The position numbers and the translations under genes were made by a program. A DNA stretch of 48,884 bases from a bacterium. Its GTDB lineage: Bacteria; JACRDZ01; JAQUKH01. The stretch lies in assembly GCA_040754625.1 (NCBI GenBank), contig JBFMCF010000060.1, positions 1 through 48,884 on the forward strand. Direction: 5' to 3'. Below the pieces are notes generated by a model. That model did no database searches. It was not told the DNA's origin and saw only the letters and a program-made list of their open reading frames with translations. Positions 5,379 to 24,868 of this stretch are shown here, piece after piece; positions within the stretch are counted from its first letter, which is position 1; the number at the start of each line of letters is the position of its first letter.

Positions 5379-6818
5379 ATGAATATATTAAGTTCAAGAA
5401 AATTTATAAATTCAATTTTATTTATAATAATCGCGCATACCGCCGTTTATGCCCAGGAAACGATTGACCCCGTTAGAAAATATCCGTCACTGATACTCAG
5501 TAAATCGTCAATGAATGGTTCAAGAGAAGCACAGGCATTTTCTAACGGGGTTGACGAAAATGCATTGTTTTCTAGCCAGGAAATAGTCGCTGAGACAACG
5601 GGAATCGTTGATGCAAAAATTATTGAAGAAGAAAAAAAGACGGTTAATTTCTCAGGCGAAGTAACAGCGGCATCCCAATATACTTTAAGCCGTGATAAGG
5701 ATGCAAAAGACAATTCCCTGGCCTCTCTGGTTTATGCGAATTTCTTCCTTGATGCGCGTCTAAAAAAAGGCACAAAATACTTCGCCAACCTGGAATTGCT
5801 GAATAACGCCAGCGGGAGCAATAATAATGACAATGATTTTTTGCTTTCGTTCAGGGAGTCCTTTATTGATTTTAATATTAAAAATACTGCATACTTCAGG
5901 ACGGGCAAACAGGTGATCCAGTGGGGCAGGTGTTATTTATGGAACCCATCGGATGTTATTAACGTTGAAAAGAAACCGTTTATAAAAAAAATAGGTTATC
6001 GCGAAGGCACTTATGGCATGAAAATTCATGTGCCTTTCGGCACAAAATACAACATTTATAGTTTTATCGATACAAAAGACGCGAAAGACATTGATGAACC
6101 CGGCCTGGCGTTTAAATACGAGTTTATTCTTAAAAAAACAGAAATGGCGTTTTCAGCGTGGGGCAAAAAAGGGTTTAAACCGGTTTACGCGTATGATTTT
6201 TCAGCGAGAATATCCGGGATCGACACTGTCGGGGAAGCGGCCTTTTCCCGCGCAGATATTGCTGAAAGGCTTAAGGAAGAAAACGGTATCTTATCAAAAT
6301 TCAGAGAAGGCAATAAATGGATTCCGAGGGCAAGCATAAATTTCGGCAGGCAGTTCGATTTTATGGATATAAGCGACAGGATATCGGTAAATATGGAGTT
6401 TTATTATAACCGGTCCGGTTATAAGGAAAATCTTTTTGGTGACGCTCAAACCTATACCTTCGCCCAGCCGGTTACAGTCTACGATTCATCCGGTGTTCCT
6501 GTTGTAAAAACGAGCGGGACGAAAAAAGATTTTTTGCTTGATAACAATCTTTACCAGGCAAACTATCATTCGAGATATTACGCGGCGCTGTTTACAAGCG
6601 TCAGAAAATTTATAATAAGTGATTTGACCCTGACCTTGAATCTTATAGGCAATCTTAACGACAAGTCTTCCATTTTAACGACAGGTGTAACTTACACGGA
6701 CATAAATGATTTCAGCCTCGGTTTTAATGTCTATTCATACCTTGGCCATTCAAACCGCGAATACACCTACTTAAATGACTTGCTTGCCGCGCGGGTTACG
6801 ATAGGGGTTGTGTTTTGA
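5379..6818 (+). CDS. Outer-membrane beta-barrel protein (DUF1302-like)
   Basis: A signal peptide (cleavage near AVYAQE) leads into a protein of alternating amphipathic strands, with a motif RTGKQVIQWGRCYLWNPSD resembling the conserved G+Q..WG segment of DUF1302-type outer-membrane proteins, and a terminal strand ending in aromatic Phe as in barrel proteins. Function and ligand are unknown. It abuts the SIMPL gene and is followed after 32 bases by the BON-DUF1207 gene, giving an envelope cluster. An 85-bp palindromic element lies just after the signal peptide and adds about 28 residues. Confidence 0.65.
   Translation: MNILSSRKFINSILFIIIAHTAVYAQETIDPVRKYPSLILSKSSMNGSREAQAFSNGVDENALFSSQEIVAETTGIVDAKIIEEEKKTVNFSGEVTAASQYTLSRDKDAKDNSLASLVYANFFLDARLKKGTKYFANLELLNNASGSNNNDNDFLLSFRESFIDFNIKNTAYFRTGKQVIQWGRCYLWNPSDVINVEKKPFIKKIGYREGTYGMKIHVPFGTKYNIYSFIDTKDAKDIDEPGLAFKYEFILKKTEMAFSAWGKKGFKPVYAYDFSARISGIDTVGEAAFSRADIAERLKEENGILSKFREGNKWIPRASINFGRQFDFMDISDRISVNMEFYYNRSGYKENLFGDAQTYTFAQPVTVYDSSGVPVVKTSGTKKDFLLDNNLYQANYHSRYYAALFTSVRKFIISDLTLTLNLIGNLNDKSSILTTGVTYTDINDFSLGFNVYSYLGHSNREYTYLNDLLAARVTIGVVF
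5467..5551. repeat. 85-bp in-gene palindromic element, copy 2
   Basis: The arm at 5467-5481 (ACCCCGTTAGAAAAT) is perfectly inverted at 5537-5551. Length (85 bp) and arm positions match copy 1 at 662-746. It is read in a different frame from copy 1, giving a segment that starts DPVRK and ends AFSNGV, placed just after the signal peptide of the barrel protein where an insertion would be tolerated. Confidence 0.75.
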
Positions 6819-21330: not shown

Positions 21331-21345
21331 TTTTTCTAACGGGGT
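21331..21345. repeat. Solitary half of the 85-bp palindromic element
   Basis: TTTTTCTAACGGGGT matches the right arm of the elements at 662-746 and 5467-5551 except for one base. No matching left arm is seen within 100 bases. It lies 43 bases upstream of the radical SAM start. Confidence 0.45.
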
Positions 21346-22752: not shown

Positions 22753-22757
22753 TGTTA

Positions 22758-22787
22758 TTGTAGGGGCAGGGCTTGCCCTGCCCTCTG
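22758..22787. repeat. REP-like hairpin 1
   Basis: TTGTAGGGGCAGGGC followed by its near-perfect complement GCCCTGCCC forms a GC-rich stem with a TT loop. Related hairpins lie at 23029-23116, in part at 23401-23415, and at 25399-25432, all next to or inside REP-associated transposase genes. Confidence 0.7.
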
Positions 22788-22791
22788 TATT

Positions 22792-23381
22792 TTAAACATA
22801 ATTTTCATCATCCTGCCAATTGATAGGATTGTTAATTATGTATTCCACAATTTTATACAATTCTGCTTCGTTTCGTATTATATGCTCATAATAATTACGC
22901 TGCCAAACGGGTACCCCTAACCGATTTAAATATTTATTAATTTTGATAGCTGAAATTGATTTTAAGACACGAACAACATCACCGATTGTTTTCCGTTTTT
23001 CATTATTCGCTTTATATTTGTTAGTAATTGTAGGGGCAAGGCTTGCCTTGCCCTCTGACGTTTCTGACATAACCATTGGTGTTGTATCAGAGGGTAGGGC
23101 AAGCCCTACCCCTACATTAAAATCATTGATCACTATAATTGCATGTATGTGATTCGGCATTATAATAAATTGTTCTAATTGTATTTGGGAAAATCGTTTC
23201 GGCAATTCCTTCCAGCATTTCTCGATAATTTCCCCACATTCGTTTAATTGCATTTTTTTATTTTCAATTCCACCTAACAAACATTCTTTATTCCTACAGC
23301 ATATCGTTATCCTTCTTTCGAATAATCATAATTTTTTAATCTAATGGATCGCCTATGATGAATATCAGGATTGTATTTCAT
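22792..23381 (-). pseudogene. REP-associated tyrosine transposase (IS200-like), frameshifted
   Basis: The Y1 transposase fold is plain: LEQFIIMPNHIHAIIVI with the HxH metal motif, and VWQRNYYEHIIRNEAELYKI with the catalytic Tyr. The N-terminus is in another frame: an ATG at 23381 begins a segment with RSIRLKNYDYSKEG that meets a stop, while ITICCRNKECLLGG is read one frame over, consistent with a small deletion near 23312. A REP pair is inserted within the gene and translated as VGVGLALP ... GKASLAP. Such transposases process REP hairpins. Confidence 0.8.
23029..23116. repeat. Inverted pair of REP-like hairpins inside the transposase gene
   Basis: REP unit 23029-23060 (TTGTAGGGGCAAGGC and its complement) and an inverted unit at 23087-23116 (AGGGTAGGGC ... 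CTACCCCTAC) face each other across 26 bases. Both are related to the hairpin at 22758-22787. Confidence 0.75.
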
Positions 23382-23642: not shown

Positions 23643-24548
23643 TTACCCCTTGTTAAAATTATTTACTCTTTCTTTTATTATTTTTCCCAGCTTTGATGAA
23701 ATATCATTATTAATATTTACAATACCGCCCAGTAATGCTTCAGAATTTATATATTTCTTAAAAACTTCATCCGTATATTTTTTGTTAATGCCCAGGTACC
23801 CGTTGAATGAATAAAAATCGGTTTTTTTGATATTGTTTTTCTTTCCGTTGAGCGTCAACGCGAAATCCTCCTCATCCTTTATCAGAATTTTCGACGACAC
23901 AATATCATACGCGGGCGCGAGCCTTATCAGTCCGTTATCTTCATAGCGTATAGAAAAATTTTTCAAGTGAGCGTCTCCGTTGCCAATTATGTAATAAAAT
24001 AGTATTCTTTCAAATAACAATTGAACATCCAATCCCGGGATTTCCGATATTGTTTTCAGCTTTTTCCCTATTTCTTCATAAGAGCCTTTATATTTGTCTT
24101 TTTTTTCTAATATCTGCCCAAAATCCTCAACATGTATTTTATCTCCGCGGCTCCTGTCAAATCGCTTAACGATATACGCCAAACTCTCGTCTTTTAGTTT
24201 TATTAACGCGAAAGAGGGGACATCAATTTCCATTTTTCGCGCGAGAATTGTACAGGTCCACTCATTTTCAGGCAAATTATAAAATGTTTGGGACTGCGGT
24301 TTTAAAATATATTCGCCGCCTTCCGCGGCCGCTTCTATTTTATTTTTTTCCTTATTAAGCCTGACGGATACTTTTGGCTGTACACCGGATATGGAAAGTT
24401 TACCTGCCATTTTCTGCGCCTCGATGTTAATATCTGAAAGCTTTAAATCTATTTCCGGCGTTTCATCTGTATCAAAAACCTTTTTTAGACAACTTTTATG
24501 ATAATTACCTTTTTCTTTAAATGATTCTCCGCAAATAAGGCAGTTCAT
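23643..24548 (-). CDS. hipT: HipT-like Ser/Thr kinase toxin (HipA C-terminal part)
   Basis: This is the kinase core of HipA without its N-terminal subdomain. Features are: a zinc-finger-like start (Cys3, Cys6, His17, Cys20), the Gly-rich loop with the Ser-Ile-Ser motif 52-54 (SISGVQPK), ATP-binding Lys83 (YILKP), catalytic Asp192 in GNGDAHLKN and metal-binding Asp215 in APAYDIVSS. HipA/HipT kinases phosphorylate aminoacyl-tRNA synthetases and halt growth. Order hipB-hipS-hipT with short overlaps matches the tripartite HipBST system of E. coli O127. The target is unknown. Confidence 0.87.
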   Translation of the reverse strand: MNCLICGESFKEKGNYHKSCLKKVFDTDETPEIDLKLSDINIEAQKMAGKLSISGVQPKVSVRLNKEKNKIEAAAEGGEYILKPQSQTFYNLPENEWTCTILARKMEIDVPSFALIKLKDESLAYIVKRFDRSRGDKIHVEDFGQILEKKDKYKGSYEEIGKKLKTISEIPGLDVQLLFERILFYYIIGNGDAHLKNFSIRYEDNGLIRLAPAYDIVSSKILIKDEEDFALTLNGKKNNIKKTDFYSFNGYLGINKKYTDEVFKKYINSEALLGGIVNINNDISSKLGKIIKERVNNFNKG

Positions 24549-24868
24549 TTTTTCTCCATAACTTTTATCGCGCCTATGGTGTCTTTGCAGGTGGCAAGCA
24601 GTAAACCAAATTTGTCGTTTTTGTCAATCTTTAACGATTTGCTTACGATGTCGAGATACCAGCCTTCAGGCAATAACCCCTCAAAAAATGGAAATAGTTC
24701 GCGGCTTTCAAACGGTTCTTTTCTTACTGGCAACGATATGGAAATGGGAATTTTGTTTTTAATGAAATCGATATTATAAATAAATTTATATCCGCTTTCT
24801 GTTTCTTCCAATAGTCCGGCTATTTGCTGTTTAAAATAAATTCTTGCTTTTCTTTTATTTTCTTTCAT
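24545..24868 (-). CDS. hipS: HipS-like protein (HipA N-terminal subdomain)
   Basis: 107 residues that match only the N-terminal subdomain of HipA, with FEGLLPEGW at 62-70 and an ending GAIKVM. In the HipBST system this small protein, not HipB, neutralises the kinase, by placing a Trp near the active site; Trp70 here, in LLPEGW, lies where that residue would be expected. It overlaps hipT by 4 bases and hipB by 14, so the split is genuine gene organisation rather than a broken hipA: both parts have proper start and stop codons in a translationally coupled layout. Confidence 0.85.
   Translation of the reverse strand: MKENKRKARIYFKQQIAGLLEETESGYKFIYNIDFIKNKIPISISLPVRKEPFESRELFPFFEGLLPEGWYLDIVSKSLKIDKNDKFGLLLATCKDTIGAIKVMEKK

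Follow-up and report, generated by a model that had tools for sequence, protein, structure and literature searches.

The window, by which we mean the whole 48,884-nucleotide stretch of DNA analysed, carries an 83-bp mobile element (copy 2; 5468–5550, no strand assigned) that has inserted in frame into a gene for a putative outer-membrane protein. The same ends recur at at least 118 loci in at least ten phyla, and it is highly probable that these are MITE-like, trans-mobilised elements with 13-bp terminal inverted repeats, which insert at TTNA|C and behave in the manner of the palindromic elements of Rickettsia and Wolbachia (RPEs).

An 83-bp insertion in the window

The preliminary description reported an 85-bp inverted repeat at 5467–5551, with the arms of a first copy except at one position in each and with a different centre, and the sequence agrees: ACCCCGTTAGAAAAT and ATTTTCTAACGGGGT (inverted arms CCCCGTTAGAAAAT) are fully complementary and enclose 55 bp. 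The outermost A and T of these 15-bp arms are bases of the target duplication (TTGA in copy 2, TTTA in copy 1), so that both copies are 83 bp long (663–745 and 5468–5550). Copy 2 is thus bounded by a left terminal inverted repeat CCCCGTTAGAAAA (5468–5480, + strand), with one base more of complementarity in this copy, and by its reverse complement at the right (5538–5550, – strand). The target duplications TTGA lie at 5464–5467 and 5551–5554 (both + strand), the right one with C as the next base, in agreement with the family consensus.

The host gene (5379–6818, + strand) is an open reading frame of 479 codons, of which copy 2 forms codons 30–58, directly behind a signal-peptide-like N-terminus; together with flanking target bases it encodes DPVRKYPSLILSKSSMNGSREAQAFSNGV. 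The product, taken for a beta-barrel in the preliminary description, is probably an outer-membrane protein; it has no Pfam match, and an AlphaFold model built without an alignment is uninformative. An element-free homologue, 59% identical, is present in a genome of the same genus (G001:C13; empty site in L230), and its protein reads IYAQEKIDENSLFSN across the empty site, with the junction YAQEKI|DENSLF where the window protein has VYAQETI-DPVRKYPSLILSKSSMNGSREAQAFSNGV-DENALFSS. In the DNA, the empty site ATCGATGAA corresponds to ATTGA, 83 bp and TTGACGAA in the window, a difference of exactly 87 bp made up of the 83-bp element and the duplicated TTGA, and equal to 29 codons. Copy 2 is therefore a precise insertion into the host gene, as the preliminary description had supposed in proposing that such homologues be compared for added length and target duplication. 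Its argument that the frame could be kept only by added target bases holds, and its example of 85+2 is replaced by 83+4. The element has probably landed in a tolerant region of the host protein.

Other copies in the source genome

Copy 1 (663–745, no strand assigned) has arms CCCCGTTAGAGAA and a TTTA duplication at 659–662 and 746–749, and lies in frame in an open reading frame at 236–1333; as an inverted repeat it spans 662–746 with arms ACCCCGTTAGAGAAT, equal in length to copy 2 and different at one position per arm. The centres of the two copies are unrelated, with 19 of 55 positions identical in register and a local alignment score of 18; shuffled sequences average 16.2, and 146 of 500 shuffles reach 18. 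The host frame of copy 1 stops abruptly and may be a broken gene; it has no homologue, and hence no element-free allele, in the 60 genomes searched. A solo arm CCCCGTTAGAAAA, followed by TTCAC and with an unrecognisable partner, is found at 21332–21344 (– strand).

Over the 138 contigs of the source genome (2.75 Mb in total) there are 19 occurrences of ACCCCGTTAGA and none of its reversed control, and recurrence of the arm is therefore not due to chance. Copies of 83–84 bp are present on contigs C60 (two), C85 and C1, and longer structured copies of up to 178 bp on C28, C55, C73, C78 and C122; several copies are flanked on each side by an exact TTTA or TAAA. A search of relatives for an empty-site comparison turned up no close homologue for the C85 and C122 copies. 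The 178-bp member on C122 (L020, 738–2480) is situated where the reading frame of an ABC-transporter ATPase continues in frame into that of a permease, possibly a gene fusion made by the element. Elsewhere in the window, a GTTATTGTAGGGGCAGGGCTTGCCCTGCCC repeat resembling GTAG-type REPs occurs twice (22754–22787 and 23024–23057), and two neighbouring reading frames (23643–24868, – strand) contain the HipA N-terminal and C-terminal domains, likely a HipA-type toxin kinase in two parts.

A family with common ends in many phyla

Scanning one genome per species (GTDB) for paired arms 45–75 bp apart yields at least 118 stretches, distributed among unrelated genes and intergenic sites. Among the matches listed, the hosts include Patescibacteria (Kaiser-, Uhr-, Moran-, Sung- and Buchananbacteria, and others), Omnitrophota, Elusimicrobia, Nitrospirae, Nitrospinota, Deltaproteobacteria, Planctomycetes, Aminicenantes, Stahlbacteria and WOR-3, together with one contig labelled Nanoarchaeota, which may be misbinned. 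Element-rich genomes have tens of arms and few or no reversed controls, as in a 0.8-Mb Uhrbacteria genome with 35+33 against 0. Viral contigs give only 17 matches to the arms, and plasmids give no match to a long member.

In the Uhrbacteria genome G041 there is a subfamily of 135–160 bp (L258, L262, L267, L275, L289 and L297) with identical arms and mostly TATG duplications, in which the arms are 100% identical and the centres 68%. Across genomes, too, the arms are conserved and the centres vary, and the suggestion in the preliminary description that spread depends on the arms is well supported by these comparisons. Arms at two other G041 sites (L298, 3328–3439, and L299, 4617–4877) enclose tRNA-Pro and tRNA-Val genes, with 4-bp flanks that do not match. 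Two Deltaproteobacteria loci (L031 and L091) share an in-gene element that is 99% identical within flanking gene sequence of 78–87% identity and is without a target duplication.

Target duplication and orientation

Among the 118 distinct elements in the matches listed, complementarity of the arms falls to chance past position 13; complementarity up to that position was itself a requirement of the scan. Position 11 covaries between the arms (G/G in 70, A/A in 41, mixed in seven). An exact 4-bp flanking duplication is seen in 73 of these 118 (about 62%), against 0–10 for the other lengths tried, and about 38% of the elements in the matches listed are without an exact one. The duplications are mostly TTTA, TTGA and TTCA and their complements, with CACA, CAAA, TACA and CGCG also represented, and where exact they are identical on both sides; the target consensus is TTNA followed by C.

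When elements are oriented by their internal sequence alone, TTN[AG] is read on the left in 28 and in the reverse sense in none, and C directly follows the duplication in 26 of 31 (both among the matches listed); insertion at TTNA|C is therefore directional. Subfamilies with the same ends have other targets, TATG in G041 and CTTA in an Elusimicrobia genome (G044). Some elements, including those of L131, L098, L091 and L054, have inward-pointing TTNA on both sides (TTTA...TGAA) and no direct duplication, and are perhaps recombinants between inverted copies.

Elements within protein-coding genes

The length plus four is divisible by three in 61 of the 118 elements among the matches listed, where one third would be expected (p=3e-5), and in elements outside open frames the three length residues are evenly represented (29, 26 and 23, likewise among the matches listed). 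Where an open frame of at least 300 bp spans the element, 35 of 40 among the matches listed are in frame, a figure owed in part to ascertainment, since an element inserted out of frame interrupts the open frame. The arms are free of stop codons in two of three frames and encode FTPLE[KN]...SLTGF or [DNHY]PVR[EK]...FSNGV.

The in-frame hosts are unrelated proteins, essential ones among them, and include peptidyl-tRNA hydrolase (Pth), MurG, DXS and glutamate dehydrogenase, the last with two elements in one protein. All four have solved homologues that are without the segment, and alignments to the solved structures break at the elements. Pilins are also hosts, with eight elements among the matches listed at the prepilin cleavage site, G|FTLIE. 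Here the GGN-TTT-ACN codons of the pilin hold a TTTAC target and the GGGG end of the element supplies the G of G|FTLIE; judging from these sequences, the mature pilin should be unchanged. A nested element is present in a pilin gene leader of L042 (3078–3674), with a second pair of arms within the first. Insertions of another kind, inteins, appear to be present in a UDP-glucose dehydrogenase reading frame (L038, 2837–5674) and a UvrB reading frame (L061, 1129–4813).

Proposed mechanism

We propose that the family consists of non-autonomous, MITE-like elements defined by the 13-bp terminal inverted repeats CCCCGTTAGARAA. The element inserts in a single orientation at a short, asymmetric site (5'-TTNA|C), of which the four bases TTNA are duplicated, and there is little constraint on its centre; an enzyme supplied in trans and recognising the paired arms would carry out the movement. 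A copy would persist within a gene and add a peptide if its length plus four is a multiple of three and its centre is free of stops, and genic copies that break the frame would later be removed by selection. In the window, the target was a TTGAC just behind the signal peptide, and the gene gained 29 codons. The precise insertion, the 4-bp duplication, the orientation, the frame, the pairing of the arms, the freedom of the centre and the spread over phyla are shown by the observations above; the trans-acting enzyme and the later selection are inferred. That the same arms are associated across phyla with differing duplications (TTNA, TATG in G041 and CTTA in G044) is not simply explained by a single enzyme. 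A more speculative version, which we think rather doubtful, is a mobile system spanning many phyla in which an undescribed transposase acts on paired 13-bp ends, with oriented insertion at asymmetric targets that are subfamily-specific (TTNA, TATG or CTTA). If true, the choice of target would be set apart from recognition of the ends, perhaps via a guide in the element, and such a system would be adding peptides to proteins across bacteria.

The moving enzyme and alternative explanations

Our searches did not find the moving enzyme: no transposase gene lies between arms in the host loci examined (about 0.85 Mb), over most of one host genome, or in the surroundings of the Y1 and DDE genes found. 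Approximately 0.70 Mb of G041, most of that genome, contains no arm pair of insertion-sequence size, and in an all-against-all comparison of reading frames near elements pilins recur and no transposase does. Arm pairs at insertion-sequence spacing with equal flanks, considered as possible autonomous partners, turned out to be ordinary chromosomal genes only, and singleton arms in two Elusimicrobia genomes are mostly decayed MITEs. Of eight host genomes searched for DDE_Tnp_1, the transposase of IS4/IS5-type DDE elements, five gave no match. In the source genome a weak fragment from the C-terminal part of DDE_Tnp_1 (L006; G000:C28:2355–2609) lies 39 bp before a 142-bp element, as if a decayed insertion sequence stood beside a MITE, and is too decayed to interpret.

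Movement by a single-strand HUH transposase (Y1, of the IS200/IS605 or RAYT type), with the tetranucleotide at the right travelling as part of the element, is the foremost alternative. The palindromic or hairpin ends and the oriented insertion beside a short asymmetric target are in keeping with it, orientation bias being common to the IS200/IS605 class, and a search of six host genomes found Y1_Tnp genes in five. However, the sixth, G041, gave no Y1_Tnp match despite its roughly 30 element pairs, and none of the 25 Y1 loci examined has an arm. The flanking tetranucleotide moreover varies jointly on both sides (TTTA, TTCA, TTGA, CACA, CAAA, CGCG), as in a true duplication, which argues against a simple IS200/IS605 mechanism, and we judge this alternative improbable.

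Less probable still is that the arms are mainly functional RNA or DNA hairpins, acting in processing, termination or translation, and that selection at the individual sites, not recent movement, preserves their identity. The arms do remain perfectly complementary as centres diverge, and they bracket tRNA genes at the two G041 sites described above, but copies within open frames would be translated through, the empty site and the exact duplications of 4 bp show movement, and the four element loci examined have no Rfam match. A reading without insertion, in which the palindrome belongs to the coding sequence of the gene family or is a hairpin arisen by chance or selection, is scarcely credible. 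The segment can be read through in frame as a plausible soluble linker, and the L031/L091 element is conserved beyond its flanks as if constrained, but the empty site in G001 contradicts this reading for copy 2 (as it does the possibility, raised in the preliminary description, that the segment belongs to the gene family), and the same arms are found in many phyla, both in unrelated genes and at intergenic sites.

Comparison with known systems

Several known systems offer comparisons. IS5 and IS1380-type DDE insertion sequences have target duplications of approximately 3–5 bp and short inverted ends. The elements described here share both features, but differ in that most of the host genomes searched have no DDE_Tnp_1 match, as noted above. 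REP and BIME sequences moved by RAYT (Y1) proteins likewise have palindromic ends and many copies, in hosts that often have Y1_Tnp. REPs carry GTAG or CGTC tags (PMC3733652), whereas the ends here are CCCCGTTAGA, a 4-bp target is duplicated, no arms are found near Y1 genes, and a cognate Y1 gene is lacking in G041; we therefore do not place the family with REP/RAYT.

The closer likeness is to prokaryotic MITEs (Correia, RUP, ERIC, Nezha, MITEAba12 and others), which are small, non-coding, and both genic and intergenic, with terminal inverted repeats and target-site duplications. Copy 2 has 13-bp arms in 83 bp, a centre too short for a transposase, and TTGA on both sides, with an empty site in G001, and exact duplications are seen at 73 of the 118 loci among the matches listed. 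Differences from known prokaryotic MITEs are that no parent insertion sequence is present in the sequence examined, that the same ends cross phyla, and that the target is asymmetric with a fixed orientation.

In behaviour the family resembles RPEs, which are approximately 100–150 bp, comprise several families, and lie in frame in unrelated protein genes at tolerated positions (PMC10969869; PMC3767692). These were described from Rickettsia and Wolbachia, so far the main source of in-frame palindromic insertions, and the occurrence of one set of ends in such a range of phyla points to a general route to longer proteins. As a natural collection of in-frame insertions that proteins tolerate the family is very large, and FTPLE..SLTGF and PVRE..FSNGV provide a motif by which insertions can be spotted in annotated proteins. 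An open-access literature search with the arm sequence and the peptide motif returned nothing relevant, and an earlier description elsewhere is possible. We do not class the family as RPEs by descent, the comparison being one with published descriptions of RPEs; by those descriptions it shares with RPEs short palindromic elements in frame in unrelated protein genes, as in Pth, MurG, DXS, glutamate dehydrogenase and the pilins, and differs in its fixed 13-bp arms over many phyla, in duplicating the 4 bp TTNA, in inserting in one orientation, and in having centres that are unrelated.
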